A stretch of 22,897 nucleotides of DNA from the IMG/VR virus record IMGVR_UViG_3300031162_000935, positions 1-22,897 of that record. One strand, written 5' to 3'. Position 1 is the stretch's first letter. Each line of letters opens with the position of its first letter. The position numbers were made by a program, and so were the translations under genes. Below, piece after piece: positions 9,574 to 17,953 of this stretch. Source of the DNA: a virus. The notes beneath the pieces were generated by a model that saw nothing but the letters and a program-made list of their open reading frames with translations, did no database searches and was not told the DNA's origin.

Positions 9574-9880
9574 GATTAAAAACTTTGATTTTGCTATGGA
9601 AATCGATTTTGGGCTACCCCACCCCATAACGATTTTCGATTTACCCCGTAGCCCTCCAACAAAACACGATTTAATGCAACACGATATTAACTTTTATGCT
9701 TACATTATAATAGGATGGGCTTAGTTATGGGCTGAAATGGGTATAAATGTACTGATTTGAGGGTATTTAAGAGGCTGTAAGGCAAAAGGAGATAGAAGCC
9801 CAACCAAGACCACAACAACACGTGCCACGCATACATGATAATATTATGTTAACCAAAAACTAAACTGAATGTGTCCAACA

Positions 9881-9936
9881 TGTGAATAACTATGTGAATA
9901 ACTACACACTTATGTGAATAACTATGTGAATAACTA
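9881..9936 (+). repeat. Four 12-bp repeats containing DnaA-box-like nonamers
   Basis: The unit TGTGAATAACTA occurs at 9881, 9893, 9913 and 9925: two head-to-tail pairs separated by 8 bp. Its reverse complement contains TTATTCACA, which fits the general DnaA-box consensus TTATNCACA. Host DnaA binding or a phage initiator or repressor is inferred. Confidence 0.75.
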
Positions 9937-9937
9937 T

Positions 9938-10081
9938 CACTCAACAGCTGAAAGGCTACAGCGTACACCAACAGCCGACCACTCAACAGCTGAAAGGCTA
10001 TCATATAATCTAATAAAAAATAAAATACTTAAAGCAAAACTTTTTCAGCTGACAGCCTGACCACTCAACAGCTGAACGGCT
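9938..10081 (+). repeat. Three 20-21-bp direct repeats
   Basis: Two exact 21-bp copies (9938-9958 and 9980-10000) and one copy with a single change (10062-10081) share the core CAACAGCTGAAAGG. CAGCTG is itself a palindrome. The repeats directly follow the DnaA-box-like array and belong to the same control region. Confidence 0.8.
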
Positions 10082-10216
10082 CCAACCGCTGAAAGGATAT
10101 TAAGAAATAAAAATATAATACTTAATGCAACAGATTTTTAACTGTTATGTTTCAACACCTGGAGCCGTTCACATGCTGAAAGAATATAAAATAATAAATA
10201 AAATACTTAATGCAAT
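9989..10216 (+). repeat. Three GCTGAAAG ... TTAATGCAA modules
   Basis: GCTGAAAG occurs at 9989, 10088 and 10175. Each is followed after 25-35 AT-rich bases by a relative of AATACTTAATGCAA (ends near 10036, 10130 and 10215). An extra TTAATGCAACA lies at 9671-9681. TAAAAT or TATAAT precedes the second element, so tandem promoters are possible. A 12-bp inverted repeat (10073-10084 with 10160-10171) brackets the second module. Confidence 0.6.
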
Positions 10217-10433: not shown

Positions 10434-10463
10434 CAACACTATAAAATTAAAGGCTATATTATG
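10434..10463 (+). promoter_or_regulatory. Repeated translation leader, copy 1
   Basis: The 27 bases before ATG 10461 match the 27 bases before ATG 11029 at 24 positions, with the same spacing (CAACACTATAAAA, then AAAGG, then TATATT and ATG). It defines both starts. Confidence 0.65.
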
Positions 10464-10721
10464 AGTAACTTATACAACAAAGCGGAACATATTAATGAAG
10501 ATGAAGGCATTTATACAATAGGCGATGATATACTAGATACTTTTATGAATGGTAACTTTAGTCAGGGTGTTAGTGACATGACTGACAATATTATTAATGC
10601 TGTAGAATTGAGTGACTATTTAAACGATAAAGCTGAAGAGTACGGGATGGATAGCGAAGAGATGTACTACGGACATTTTACAAGTGATTTTTGGATAGCT
10701 TTAGGAAGAGAGGGTTTATAA
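10461..10721 (+). CDS. 86-aa acidic small protein
   Basis: This is the first gene of the rightward early-type block. The protein is soluble and very acidic (for example INEDEGIYTIGDDILDTF, residues 11-28, and DKAEEYGMDSEEMYYGHF, about 56-73). There is no membrane segment and no recognised domain. Small acidic proteins at the start of a phage operon often target host enzymes or mimic DNA, which is inference only. The start is preceded by AAAGG within a leader that is repeated at 11002-11031. The stop is one base before the next gene. Confidence 0.75.
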   Translation: MSNLYNKAEHINEDEGIYTIGDDILDTFMNGNFSQGVSDMTDNIINAVELSDYLNDKAEEYGMDSEEMYYGHFTSDFWIALGREGL

Positions 10722-11001: not shown

Positions 11002-11031
11002 CAACACTATAAAACAAAAGGGTATATTATG
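11002..11031 (+). promoter_or_regulatory. Repeated translation leader, copy 2
   Basis: This is the second copy of the leader at 10434-10463, 24 of 27 bases identical and at the same distance from the ATG. It selects ATG 11029 over an upstream in-frame ATG at 10963. Confidence 0.65.
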
Positions 11032-11325
11032 AAAGATATTACAAAAGCACTAAAAGCAAATATCAGAGTGGAAAACATGACGAGTAATGCTGGTAATGAT
11101 GTTCCAAATCAGTTTATTATTTACACTGAATACGGAAAAATGTTTCGTAGTTATTCAAGCAATATAGCTTTTATTCCTTATGATGAAAATACTATTTACC
11201 TTGGTTCTGACTGGGAGTATTCACGAACTACGACAAAATATAGAAATGAATTTTTAAGATGTAACACTGCTGAGCTGCGAACAATGATAAAAAATGGTCG
11301 TGCTGTTATAAATGAGGGTTTATAA
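11029..11325 (+). CDS. 98-aa small phage protein with NQF...FxSY...W-x-YSRTT pattern
   Basis: The protein contains VPNQFIIYTEYGKMFRSYSSN (residues about 25-45; key residues N-Q-F and F-R-S-Y) and DWEYSRTTTKYRNEFL (about 62-77). From memory, short proteins combining these motifs are widespread in phages and prophages of diverse bacteria and have no known function. The start is chosen by the repeated leader. The C-terminus (GRAVINEGL) runs into the same junction as the first cassette. Family membership is fairly likely; function is unknown. Confidence 0.8.
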   Translation: MKDITKALKANIRVENMTSNAGNDVPNQFIIYTEYGKMFRSYSSNIAFIPYDENTIYLGSDWEYSRTTTKYRNEFLRCNTAELRTMIKNGRAVINEGL

Positions 11326-12444: not shown

Positions 12445-12678
12445 ATGGCTAAATTAATTTACAGTACAAGTGCTACGATATTTTATCTTATGCACATTGA
12501 GAAATTAACCATGAGAGAGGTTCGTGCATTAATACATGAACGGTTGACCATTGTTAGAAAGCTGAAGAGTGGTAAACAAAAGTTTACTAAACAAAATTAT
12601 TTAGACATTATTGCTAAGTATCCTCAATTAGAGGGTTCTATCGAAATGTTTGAAAACGTAAAATTAAAGGATAAATAA
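12445..12678 (+). CDS. 77-aa unknown, possibly DNA-binding small protein
   Basis: The ATG at 12445 has a clear AAAGGAG site, which would be inside the coding region if the in-frame ATG at 12430 were used. The protein is basic and helical (LTMREVRALIHERLTIVRKL and KSGKQKFTKQNYLDIIAKYP). The spacing resembles small lambda-Cro-like or XRE-like helix-turn-helix proteins, though this is uncertain. Its TAA overlaps the next start (TAATG). Confidence 0.75.
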   Translation: MAKLIYSTSATIFYLMHIEKLTMREVRALIHERLTIVRKLKSGKQKFTKQNYLDIIAKYPQLEGSIEMFENVKLKDK

Positions 12679-12992
12679 TGACAGTACAATATCAAGGTAA
12701 TGATGTATACAAAGTATTTATCGGTGAACAAGAATTATTGTTGTCTCAAGATGAGGTAAATGAGATACAATGTTGGGATTTTGTCAATAGAAAAGATATA
12801 AGCGATGAGGTTGAAGAGTTGGAAGATGAGCTTGAAAAAACTCAAACATCTACTTCAGAACTTTATCAAAAGTTGGCTGAAGTTATCAGTGAAATAGATA
12901 AAATTGGATTTACTGACAAAGAAAACTTTGAAGCGATGAAAGCAATTCGTGAGAAAATTTCAGTCATAAGTCAGAAATTAGGGGAAATTTGA
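12678..12992 (+). CDS. 104-aa coiled-coil protein
   Basis: An N-terminal beta-rich part (residues 1-35, VQYQGNDVYKVFIGEQELLL) is followed by a long heptad-type helix (about residues 40-75, SDEVEELEDELEKTQTSTSE) and a second helix (FEAMKAIREKISVISQKLGE). It is acidic in the coil and probably oligomeric. AAAGGA precedes the ATG. It is the last gene before the iteron region and primase, so it may be a replication accessory. No family is recognised. Confidence 0.75.
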   Translation: MTVQYQGNDVYKVFIGEQELLLSQDEVNEIQCWDFVNRKDISDEVEELEDELEKTQTSTSELYQKLAEVISEIDKIGFTDKENFEAMKAIREKISVISQKLGEI

Positions 12993-13009
12993 GCTAAAAG
13001 GTAGAAAAG

Positions 13010-13256
13010 TGACCACCGAGTGACTACCACTTTGACCACCTATTAAACCCCTATATTTAGGTACCTATCCCTATAGGTGGTCAAGTAGACAGTACATACT
13101 ATACCTTATACATATAATATTTTTTTTTCAGTAAATAAAAAAATAGTAAATATAGTTCCGCCATGTAAAAATCGTGACTACTTTGACCACCGAAGCTATC
13201 AAACTCCCAACCACACGAGGTTTAAGGCGGTGGTCAAGTGGTCAAAGCGGTGGTCA
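13010..13256. other. Candidate replication origin: TGACCACC/GGTGGTCA repeats around an AT-rich tract
   Basis: Exact TGACCACC occurs at 13010, 13033 and 13184. Its reverse complement GGTGGTCA occurs at 13076, 13229 and 13249. Near copies lie at 13021, 13175 and 13237. The arms TTGACCACCTAT (13032-13043) and ATAGGTGGTCAA (13073-13084) are a perfect 12-bp inverted repeat. Between the left and right clusters lies an almost pure A/T stretch (about 13098-13160). Repeats plus an unwinding-type tract directly before a primase-helicase gene are what a phage origin looks like (compare P4 alpha and its iterons). The region has no gene. Confidence 0.65.
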
Positions 13257-13274
13257 CTGCATTATTTACCAAAT

Positions 13275-13285
13275 TATGATATACT
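13275..13285 (+). promoter_or_regulatory. Extended -10 promoter candidate for the primase operon
   Basis: TATGATATACT is the same 11-mer as at 5075-5085 and 8981-8991 (both on the minus strand). It would start RNA near 13292, about six bases before a 20-bp hairpin. No good -35 is seen, as is common for extended -10 promoters. Confidence 0.5.
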
Positions 13286-13297
13286 TCTAACCTAAGA

Positions 13298-13405
13298 ACG
13301 ATTAATCTCGTGTCTCCCATGACACAACTTTTCCATCTTCGGATGGAGACACGAGATTAGTCGTAACTTTTAACTAAGTCCAAAGAGAATTGTTGTGGGA
13401 GACAC
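13298..13405 (+). promoter_or_regulatory. Primase mRNA leader with two mutually exclusive helices
   Basis: Helix I: 13298-13317 pairs with 13345-13364 (20 bp, one G-U). Its loop side carries CCATC-TTCG-GATGG, a canonical cUUCGg hairpin (13333-13346). Helix II: 13310-13319 plus 13325-13328 pair with 13392-13405 (14 bp with a 5-base bulge). Both helices need 13310-13317, and GGAGACAC occurs twice (13345 and 13398) as the competing partner. This is the layout of an attenuator or riboswitch-like leader, or of a stabilising 5' hairpin. Helix I is clearly stronger. Confidence 0.6.
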
Positions 13406-13448
13406 TCTTTTTGTAGGCTATACAAAACTATACCCAAAAGGAGAACTA

Positions 13449-15812
13449 ATGAACAACACTCTCAAAGATGCTTATGAGCAATATCGTTCACAAGGATTTA
13501 TATTACAAAAATCCGCAAGAAATAAGAAACATGCTTTTCGAGAGGGTGCGTACGTTGACCGTGAAAATGAAAAATGGGTCGATAGTGCAACCGGTTACGT
13601 TGGAATTATTCCACCTAACTTAATCATTGTCGATAATGACAAGTATGAGGACGACAACGAGTTTGACAAATTACTCAAAGACCTCAACTTAGATTATACA
13701 CCTGAGCCGTTTGCATTGACACCTAGTGGTGGAGAACATTATGCTTTTGAAAATCCTAATACTGATTTAGTTATTGGTAATCACGGATACAAATCTATTG
13801 ACATCTATGCTGGTTATCAATCAGTAATTCCTATCGTTGGGACAACTGTTAAAAACAAGCAAGACACTCTAGCCTCTTACGAATGGGCTGACGACATCAC
13901 TGAAAGTTTTATTGTCAACAAATTCGATGAGTCAATGGTTGAAGTTTTACAGATGCGAGAGCGTGGTAACAACGGAGACAACGATTATGACGATACGGGT
14001 CTAACCCTAGCAATCAAAGTTGAAGATATGTCTGACGATGAAGCCATCAAGCTTTGTGAACAAATACCCATCGAAACTTACGGTTATGATACTGGGTGGT
14101 TAAAATTTGCAATGGCACTCTATGATAGATTTGAAGGTAATCAGGAAGGTCTTAAACTATTTCAAAGCACTTGCGAGAGATATGCTGATAACAGTCCTGA
14201 GTTTAATTCACAAAAATGGAACGCTGGTCACTTTAAACCTACCGGTAGAATAACTTACAAAACTTTGCGCTCACTAGCAAATGAAGGTGTTGGTCAAACT
14301 TCAACATCTAAAATCGCTAATGCTAAAACTGTTGAAGAGCTTGAAGAAGTTGCTGACGCAATGACTAAGAGTAGACTCAACACAACATCGAAACTTGATG
14401 AGATTGTCAGAGAAGAACTGCTTGAACAGATTTGTGAAAAGTCTAAAGAGCTTGTTGGTAAACCTGACAAAGTTAAGTGGAAAAATGCTGTTAAGTTTGT
14501 TGAGCCTGAAAAAGACGTGGAAATACCTGAAGGTTTTAACGTGTATCGTCTTGATAACAAATATCTTATTCGCTACAAGAACAAGATACTTCAAGAAGTT
14601 ACATCGACAATGCTCAAAGAACAACTTGCGTCACTTGGTATATTTTTTGGCAAAGATGAGTTGCCTAAATTCAAAAATACAATTCAAACTGTCTCGTCTT
14701 ATAGACAAATACCTGATTACACACTCAACAGTATTACATCGTTCAACACTGAAGAGCAAGGTGGCATAACTGTCCCAGCTTTTGTTGTTAGATTTAATCC
14801 GCTGTTTGAGTTGGAAGAGATTGAGTTAGATGAAGACATTATCACTGACTTTTTTGATGAGGTTTGGGGTGGTAAGCTTTACGACATCGTAAGGTTAATC
14901 GCTTTAACAATCAAACTAGGCGAACAAAAACTTAATCGTCTAATGGTCGTTGCACCGTCTAATGCTGGTAAGTCTGAAATCTTTACGATGATGAACTTTC
15001 AGAAGATTACAATGCAACGTTTACTCAACGGTATGCGTGGAGATAAGGGTATTGGTAGTGACATAGTTGATGGTGTTCGTAAAAGCGGATTACTGTTAAT
15101 CGATGAAGCTAACAAGTCTTTAGAAGCTGAGATTAAAGATATGGACAAAGAGTTACACATTGACCAATTTGGAAAGGGTGGAACACAAGTTTTACCTCTA
15201 CACTTTACAGCTTTAACCTCGACACACTCGAATGCAACGCGTAACAATTCAGATGAGCTTTACAATCGTTTCTTACAAGTTGAGCTCCACAAATCTGATA
15301 TGAAACACACCATCATGGACAGTAAATTATTCCTGGAAGATAGCGGTAAATATACGGACACTGTTCGTGGTAAACTATTGCAAATGTTCAAAGAAATATT
15401 ATTTGGAAATGAAGGTAAAGATGAGTTGCACGAGCTACAAGAAAAGTATCGTCTGCCAATTAACAACGACCTTAACGAACTGCTTTATGAAGTAGGAGAA
15501 GACTTCATACGTGAGACAAAAGCAAACGCTAAGGACCACGGTGACACGGTAGTTAGAGCTGGTGAATATTTCTGTAAACGTAAAACAGATGTTATGAAAT
15601 ATTTTGAAAACAGACTAGGTGAAATTGAAAGCCTTGACGTTGGTAAGTATTCAGAACTACTCACTAAACACTTTGTAAGTGAAGATAGAAAATCTGTAAA
15701 AGTTGACGGTAAAGCTGCAAAATATTACGGTTTATCTTTACGACCTTACAGTGAAGATGAAGAAACATTGGTTATGTCTGAGTTTGATGACTTAGATATT
15801 GAGGATTTATAA
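13449..15812 (+). CDS. Bifunctional primase-polymerase / superfamily 3-type helicase
   Basis: This 787-aa replication initiator primes and unwinds phage DNA. Residues 1-150 form a prim-pol domain: VDND (61-64) is the metal-binding pair, SGGEH (93-97) the conserved SGG-x-H and DIYAGYQSVIP (118-128) the following strand. Residues about 195-280 look like a PriCT-type helical domain (GWLKFAMALYD, then TYKTLRSLANEG). The helicase core has Walker A APSNAGKS (502-509), Walker B GLLLIDEANK (547-556), a sensor strand (FTALTSTH, 586-593) and an arginine in LYNRFLQVEL (604-613), as in D5/SF3 helicases. I choose ATG 13449, which has AAAGGAG, over a GTG at 13395 in the leader. The adjacent repeat cluster is its likely target. 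Confidence 0.9.
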   Translation: MNNTLKDAYEQYRSQGFILQKSARNKKHAFREGAYVDRENEKWVDSATGYVGIIPPNLIIVDNDKYEDDNEFDKLLKDLNLDYTPEPFALTPSGGEHYAFENPNTDLVIGNHGYKSIDIYAGYQSVIPIVGTTVKNKQDTLASYEWADDITESFIVNKFDESMVEVLQMRERGNNGDNDYDDTGLTLAIKVEDMSDDEAIKLCEQIPIETYGYDTGWLKFAMALYDRFEGNQEGLKLFQSTCERYADNSPEFNSQKWNAGHFKPTGRITYKTLRSLANEGVGQTSTSKIANAKTVEELEEVADAMTKSRLNTTSKLDEIVREELLEQICEKSKELVGKPDKVKWKNAVKFVEPEKDVEIPEGFNVYRLDNKYLIRYKNKILQEVTSTMLKEQLASLGIFFGKDELPKFKNTIQTVSSYRQIPDYTLNSITSFNTEEQGGITVPAFVVRFNPLFELEEIELDEDIITDFFDEVWGGKLYDIVRLIALTIKLGEQKLNRLMVVAPSNAGKSEIFTMMNFQKITMQRLLNGMRGDKGIGSDIVDGVRKSGLLLIDEANKSLEAEIKDMDKELHIDQFGKGGTQVLPLHFTALTSTHSNATRNNSDELYNRFLQVELHKSDMKHTIMDSKLFLEDSGKYTDTVRGKLLQMFKEILFGNEGKDELHELQEKYRLPINNDLNELLYEVGEDFIRETKANAKDHGDTVVRAGEYFCKRKTDVMKYFENRLGEIESLDVGKYSELLTKHFVSEDRKSVKVDGKAAKYYGLSLRPYSEDEETLVMSEFDDLDIEDL

Positions 15813-15838
15813 TAACTTAAGGAAACTTAAGTTATTAT
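15809..15838 (+). other. 13-bp hairpin with GAAA tetraloop over the primase stop
   Basis: A perfect 13-bp stem closes on a GAAA (GNRA) loop. The core CTTAAGGAAACTTAAG recurs exactly at 17913-17934. It includes the primase stop codon. No clear U-run follows, so RNA processing or 3'-end protection is more likely than termination. Confidence 0.7.
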
Positions 15839-15872
15839 TTCAAAGTACACAATAAAAATAAAAGGATAGACA

Positions 15873-17701: not shown

Positions 17702-17920
17702 ATGAATAGAAGAAGCACAATGTTAACAATGGTAGCCGGTGCATTAGCATCGGTTGGTGGTTCAATGTTACCGTCAATGAGCAAGACTTACGGTCAAACA
17801 TCAGTGAGACATAATAACTACAAAACTGGTGGTAAACCTTTTACTAGAGGTAAGCGAGATAAATCTCTTAAAGTTAGAGCTAATAGACGAAAAGCTAAAA
17901 GCCGAAAAAGATTAGCTTAA
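17702..17920 (+). CDS. 72-aa basic protein with hydrophobic N-terminus
   Basis: Residues 8-26 are mildly hydrophobic (LTMVAGALASVGGSMLPSM). The rest is strongly basic, ending KVRANRRKAKSRKRLA. GAGGAA precedes ATG 17702. An in-frame ATG further upstream would lie deep inside the nuclease gene and is rejected. The protein could bind nucleic acid or the inner face of the membrane. No family is recognised. The stop codon lies inside a hairpin that repeats the one after the primase. Confidence 0.7.
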   Translation: MNRRSTMLTMVAGALASVGGSMLPSMSKTYGQTSVRHNNYKTGGKPFTRGKRDKSLKVRANRRKAKSRKRLA

Positions 17921-17934
17921 GGAAACTTAAGCTA
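17913..17934 (+). other. 9-bp hairpin with GAAA tetraloop over a stop codon
   Basis: This is the second copy of CTTAAGGAAACTTAAG, here with TAG/CTA outer pairs. Like the copy at 15809-15838 it covers a TAA stop. A sigma70-type promoter starts 20 bases further on. Confidence 0.7.
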
Positions 17935-17953
17935 CAATCATAACTTACATGTG

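Follow-up and report, generated by a model that had tools for sequence, protein, structure and literature searches.

A conserved primase leader with two alternative folds and a predicted Shine-Dalgarno output in metagenome-derived phages

The primase gene of a phage known from a metagenome is preceded by a 5′ leader with two alternative folds, and comparison with related phages suggests that this leader is probably a cis-acting two-state translational switch of the primase mRNA. Its predicted output is a strand, D′, that would serve both as the partner of an upstream strand (D) and as an anti-Shine-Dalgarno, an element missed by the first-pass annotation of this DNA. By prediction, all seven distinct leaders compared here have an anti-Shine-Dalgarno that can pair either with D or with the Shine-Dalgarno sequence (SD).

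The window (the whole stretch of DNA analyzed) is the 22.9-kb virus record IMGVR_UViG_3300031162_000935. Podovirus-type structural genes (nozzle, capsid, head-tail connector) all lie on one strand, and a replication module lies on the other, comprising the primase, a DUF2800 exonuclease, an Enc34-type single-strand binding protein, and a DNA polymerase. The gene behind the leader (13449–15812, + strand) encodes a 787-aa PriCT-2/PrimPol-type primase with a helicase-like C-terminal part, an assignment that draws on domain matches and motifs: the window protein has a PriCT_2 domain match, the primases of L012 and L003 have a Prim-Pol domain above the cut-off, the PHROG match is phrog_1156 (DNA primase), and the helicase-like part was read from conserved motifs. 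Elsewhere in the window, the same palindromic hairpin (TAACTTAAGGAAACTTAAGTTA type, possibly a bidirectional terminator) occurs after the primase gene (15813–15849) and before the single-strand binding gene (17913–17949), two translation-start regions in front of different small genes (10434–10464 and 11002–11032) are 90% identical, direct repeats of 21 nt lie at the window edge (1–97), and a second repeat-rich intergenic region (9880–10215) holds TGTGAATAACTA repeats together with AATAAAATACTTAATGCAA-like and CCACTCAACAGCTGAAAGGCT-like repeats in three copies each.

Architecture of the leader

The leader follows a promoter region at 13262–13297 (+ strand, as are all leader parts below) with a −10-like TATGAT/TATACT at 13275–13285 and a predicted start near 13291. 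The first-pass annotation had placed the leader about six bases after a predicted transcription start. Initiation near 13291 is plausible, although the promoter match is weak (9/12 in a scan of the window, about as frequent as in shuffles, 0.6). The equivalent site in L002 reads TTGACA-17-TACAAT (11/12).

Both long helices described in that annotation are present. The 20-bp hairpin, with one G·U pair, has a 5′ arm (13298–13317) made of strand A (13298–13309) plus an extension (13310–13317) and a 3′ arm (13345–13364) made of strand A′ (13353–13364) plus a GGAGACAC extension (13345–13352); it encloses the UUCG hairpin C (CCATC-UUCG-GATGG, 13333–13346), which grows to 13330–13349 in the OFF fold defined below. 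The second helix joins strand B (13310–13324) to strand B′ (TGTTGTGGGAGACAC, 13391–13405) with 15 positions paired, two of them as G·U; the 14-bp version originally reported corresponds to 13310–13319 and 13325–13328 paired with 13392–13405 around a 5-nt bulge. As claimed, both helices need 13310–13317: these first 8 nt of B also pair with 13345–13352, and the partner word GGAGACAC occurs twice (13345–13352 and 13398–13405). Competition with the second helix is limited to these 8 of the 20 bp of the A:A′ hairpin, so the lower 12 bp (13298–13309 with 13353–13364) could coexist with it as a pseudoknot. The 20-bp hairpin was reached by 0/300 dinucleotide shuffles, and the leader region folds with z = −4.3 to −5.6.

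Three further elements connect these helices to the start codon; several strand boundaries in the leader were set by eye. Strand D (CAAAGAG, 13381–13387) is a predicted anti-anti-SD that pairs with 13407–13413 and thereby closes a loop containing B′; strand D′ (CTCTTTTTG, 13405–13413) would have D as its partner in the ON fold and the SD in the OFF fold; and the SD region (CAAAAGGAG, 13435–13443, with AAGGAG at 13438–13443) is predicted to be sequestered by D′ through 9 bp, including one G·U. A small hairpin E (ACTT...AAGT, 13366–13379) lies inside B:B′ in the OFF fold. The 44-nt spacing to the replication initiator given earlier is that from the end of the second helix to the primase ATG (13449).

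Conservation, covariation, and distribution

In IMG/VR, primase and exonuclease profiles found 12 further records of the primase clade, and the profiles of the primase and of its helicase-like part both returned these same twelve. Seven of the 12 carry the leader (L001, L002, L003, L008, L009, L012, and L091). The L008 leader equals that of the window, leaving seven distinct leaders, the window's and six in relatives; three of the seven (window, L009, L091) are close kin. The strand order is A, B, hairpin C, A′, D, B′, D′, SD in all seven, and A:A′, B:B′, and D:D′ are complementary in every one despite differing sequences; the second pairing is thus conserved throughout. The longest helix of each leader was matched by 0/300 shuffles, as against 9/300 and 79/300 for the regions upstream of two leaderless primases, which are ordinary in helix length. 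Hairpin C has a TTCG loop in the window, L001, L002, L003, and L091, TTTG in L009, and GTAA in L012, and hairpin E has counterparts in L009 and L091 (ACTGTTAATTCAGT), L001 (TCTTGATTATTTAAGA), and L002 (TCTTGTAATTACAAGA). B:B′ spans 14–19 bp in most leaders and, in L003, 9 bp with a further, incomplete extension; D:D′ spans 5–9 bp with B′ inside it, with some overlap in L091 and L002.

Covariation in homologous leaders, which the first-pass annotation had proposed as a check, is stronger for A:A′ + D:D′ than for B:B′ + D′:SD. When the window, L008, L009, and L091 are aligned by sequence only, A:A′ + D:D′ has 94.3% paired cells (slid controls 40–47%) and seven pairs changed on both sides, compared with 2.3 in shuffles, of which 1/500 scored as high. 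D:D′ alone (7 bp) has three pairs changed on both sides and is 100% paired in the four sequences. B:B′ + D′:SD is 87% paired (slid controls 49–66%) with three two-sided pairs against 0.8 in shuffles, a weaker signal that is partly due to the aligner's shift of L091. An extra helix (13358–13362 with 13416–13420) is paired in all four rows and mostly invariant. In L009, C stands in place of the T at 13313, and each of the two partner-word copies has G instead of the opposing A, a double compensation that is as expected if both pairings matter. Exchanging strands between phages lowers B:B′ pairing from 100% to 51% and A:A′ pairing to 65%, an illustrative comparison only, with strands chosen by eye. 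In every leader D′ can pair with D as well as with the SD (joint shuffle P ≤ 0.012); D′:SD is short (4–5 bp) in L012, L003, L001, and L091 and taken alone is not significant in L012 and L003. More divergent relatives also have a shorter displacing word (CACT in L001), which would make their displacement less complete. Together, these data leave the structure of the leader and its conservation well supported.

The leader forms part of a cassette that runs from promoter to SD and is common to the window and L008. The window and L008 are 96% identical over 13262–13443 and identical over 13300–13419, and their similarity ends on both sides, at 13262 on the left, upstream of which the iteron words of the two phages differ. 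Downstream of the leader, L008 has a 64-aa ORF and then the primase; this ORF (L008:4984–5178) has no PHROG match and overlaps the primase start codon. A shared promoter-to-SD block with unlike flanks links the leader to transcription and translation initiation and not to the origin. The region upstream of the cassette (13008–13258) contains direct and inverted GGTGGTCA repeats, iteron-like, around an AT-rich stretch (13100–13155), and is perhaps a replication origin; the last GGTGGTCA copy overlaps a possible −35, and relatives have another repeat word (GGTAGTAA in L001, L008, L009, L012, and L013). Directly upstream of this region is a gene for a 104-aa protein (12678–12992) with a weak Rz-like spanin match (E 0.0044), which is matched in five leader-bearing phages and at 0/3 leaderless loci.

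Leaderless primases form two lineages, one comprising the near-duplicates L093, L094, and L095 and the other L013 and L096. On the primase tree, rooted at its midpoint, the leader label changes twice. With that root, and since the leader is present in L003, whose primase is the most divergent, we infer an ancestral leader that was lost twice. The start of the window primase gene (13449–14260) has about 78–79% DNA identity to L008 and L009 (79% to L008 over the first 600 bases), and the tree places the whole protein with L001, which suggests recombination within the gene.

Searches beyond this clade returned little. The window primase had no match among 50,697 phage records, and that of L012 had weak and partial matches only, several of them to Vibrio phage primase/polymerases; a search of solved structures with the primase profile found none. 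Genome contigs contained neither a primase relative nor a copy of the conserved leader stretch, a DNA-pattern search for further carriers returned only three already known records, and primases on the opposite strand (L015–L026) showed no such leader by eye. A geometric search for the A-B-A′-B′ order returned known leaders and chance matches, many in GC-rich loci or iterons; it did not cover L091 and failed to recover the leaders of L003, L009, and L012, so its silence elsewhere says little.

Predicted SD accessibility and state energies

Thermodynamic models predict that the SD is hidden behind the leader. When the RNA is folded through to the start codon, the SD lies in a helix with D′ in all seven leaders, and the probability that it is unpaired is 0.00 in the window, 0.02 in L002, 0.07 in L009, 0.09 in L091, 0.10 in L003, 0.16 in L001, and 0.34 in L012 (0.26 in the L008 cassette). 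Among 101 other genes of these phages, the median SD accessibility is 0.60 and 9% fall below 0.2. Primases of leaderless phages have predicted accessibilities of 0.73 and 0.78, and the L008 primase, which is not directly behind its leader, 0.48. A rank test gave P = 0.0001 with L008 included; this comparison took six primases (window, L008, L009, L001, L002, L012) and left out L003 and L091.

The energies of the two states, likewise from thermodynamic models only, differ among leaders. For the leader alone, folding predicts B:B′ as the minimum in 6/7 cases and A:A′ in the window, so the concern raised initially, that the second helix might never be populated, was not borne out. With the SD included, the predicted minimum is B:B′ + D′:SD in five leaders (L009, L091, L001, L002, L012) and A:A′ + D′:SD in the window and L003; the ON state is the minimum in none, and in the window, given its A:A′ + D′:SD minimum, D:D′ may be rarely populated. 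Competing folds of the window are 2 to 8 kcal/mol more stable than B:B′. The OFF state lies 2.2 kcal/mol above the ON state in the window and 2.2 to 15.3 kcal/mol below it in the other leaders. In separate constrained folding, two runs labelled OFF (window and L003) gave the A:A′ fold, and these labels carry no weight. When growing prefixes are folded, A:A′ is the minimum until B′ has been transcribed, after which B:B′ takes over. Barriers along nested paths are 19–36 kcal/mol, as upper bounds that pseudoknotted paths could lower.

Candidate mechanism, alternatives, and significance

These properties suggest a model in which A:A′ + D:D′ would leave the SD free (ON) and B:B′ + D′:SD would hide it (OFF). 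Because B′ lies in the loop of the D hairpin, formation of B:B′ is expected to open D:D′, and the freed D′ would then turn to the SD. B′ carries the word of the strand that it would replace (GGAGACAC), which fits strand displacement: the duplicated word would let B′ displace the top of A:A′ by branch migration, starting at the unpaired part of B within the hairpin loop. Since B′ would be transcribed only after A:A′ had formed, and the barriers between the states are predicted to be high, each transcript may commit to one fold while it is being made and not by equilibration. Translation of new transcripts may then last for a limited time; alternatively, the balance between the folds may be tipped by a protein or RNase III. 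The trigger and any effect on the amount of primase are conjectural. A more specific and distinctly tentative version is a toehold strand-displacement timer, in which A:A′ keeps the young RNA ON until the later strand bearing the A′ word invades and shuts translation off; the high nested barriers imply that a passive timer would be slow.

Several alternatives are less probable. Control by a ligand or through termination finds little in these data: the first-pass annotation had likened the leader to an attenuator or a riboswitch, but no terminator-like site was found within or just after it on the coding strand, and no run of unpaired nucleotides is conserved across divergent leaders. A two-state design with an SD output is standard in translational riboswitches, yet the divergent leaders keep base pairing only, with no conserved ligand-binding core or long invariant run of columns (in alignments that are themselves uncertain), and no Rfam family matches at gathering scores; a metabolite riboswitch of unknown class is the least probable reading. 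Only slightly less remote is a role of the inverted repeats in DNA, as hairpins of a replication origin onto which the primase would load. An AT-rich stretch among iteron-like repeats does lie directly upstream of the leader, and the gene behind it encodes a primase, but the shared cassette begins at the promoter region, ends at the SD, and leaves the iterons outside, L013 and L096 retain iteron-like repeats and the primase without any leader, and the recurring G·U pairs and cUUCGg loop suit RNA rather than DNA. A leader peptide of the erm type is not apparent either, no conserved short ORF with an SD being found by eye: no SD precedes the ATG at 13319, L091 lacks this ATG, and in L009 the frame is a different one.

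Regulators acting in trans on the mRNA deserve somewhat more weight and are still unlikely. The primase or another phage protein might bind one fold and repress translation, much as T4 gp32 represses its own mRNA through a leader pseudoknot. The gene does encode a nucleic-acid-binding enzyme, and the leader and primase start of the window both resemble L008 and L009 while the whole protein groups with L001; against such an operator, divergent leaders share no conserved unpaired block, and in L008 the same cassette precedes a different ORF. A low-power comparison of gene content between leader-bearing and leaderless phages gave no clear candidate effector. A little less probable again is a trans antisense of the phage P4 kind, in which B from an excised A:A′ hairpin would pair with B′ of new transcripts and limit primase synthesis in proportion to phage copy number. 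B:B′ is complementary in every leader, so intermolecular pairing is possible by construction, and one word of the window has two partner copies, like P4 seqB with seqA and seqC (PMC4825925). P4, however, works via transcription termination, no terminator-like site was found here, and the logic of D, D′, and SD is already complete in cis. The cis-acting two-state switch is therefore the reading we prefer.

The leader matches no catalogued Rfam family. In agreement with the first-pass annotation, which recognized no family, searches of Rfam 15 with the leaders of the window, L001, L002, L003, L009, L012, and L091 gave no match at the gathering cut-off, and the weak matches at the leader were far below it. 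The DUF2800 RNA motif, a possible relative, was compared through Rfam only. The leader pseudoknot of IncI/IncB plasmid repZ (Rfam PK-repZ) is likewise a structured leader that controls a replication initiator, but its only match (13.8 bits, cut-off 44) lies upstream at 13075–13164 and not at the leader. A limited literature search, covering few subscription journals, found no publication on this leader. Among the closest functional parallels is the maturation-gene leader of MS2, where a transient fold admits the ribosome before a stabler fold closes the start (PMC6733600). An open fold followed by a closed one may be common to both, the timer being our conjecture here; MS2, however, is an RNA phage whose closed form is a cloverleaf, whereas the primase leader belongs to a DNA phage and has two complete alternative helix sets and a duplicated displacing word. 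Toxin mRNAs of the hok and AapA types share sequential folding, metastable hairpins, and SD/anti-SD pairing (PMC6733600), but their early hairpins lead to or keep the closed state and processing removes a 5′–3′ interaction; the primase leader involves no toxin and no 3′ partner, and its early fold is the predicted ON state. In lambda cIII mRNA, conformation controls translation and RNase III binding shifts the conformation (PMC2777011), another phage mRNA under the type of control predicted here. The CI RNA of P4 arises by processing of a leader and shuts off the expression of replication genes (PMC4825925); the P4 leader resembles the primase leader in preceding replication genes and in having one sequence that can pair with two others, and differs in its use of termination and a processed RNA.

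The leader is thus a candidate conserved RNA element, absent from Rfam, placed before the first replication enzyme of a phage group seen here solely as metagenome-derived virus records, and its two-state design has been kept by compensating changes. If the timer is real, each mRNA of the replication initiator would be translated for a set time only, and if the choice of fold during transcription sets the dosage of the initiator, replication of these phages would be controlled by RNA folding alone.
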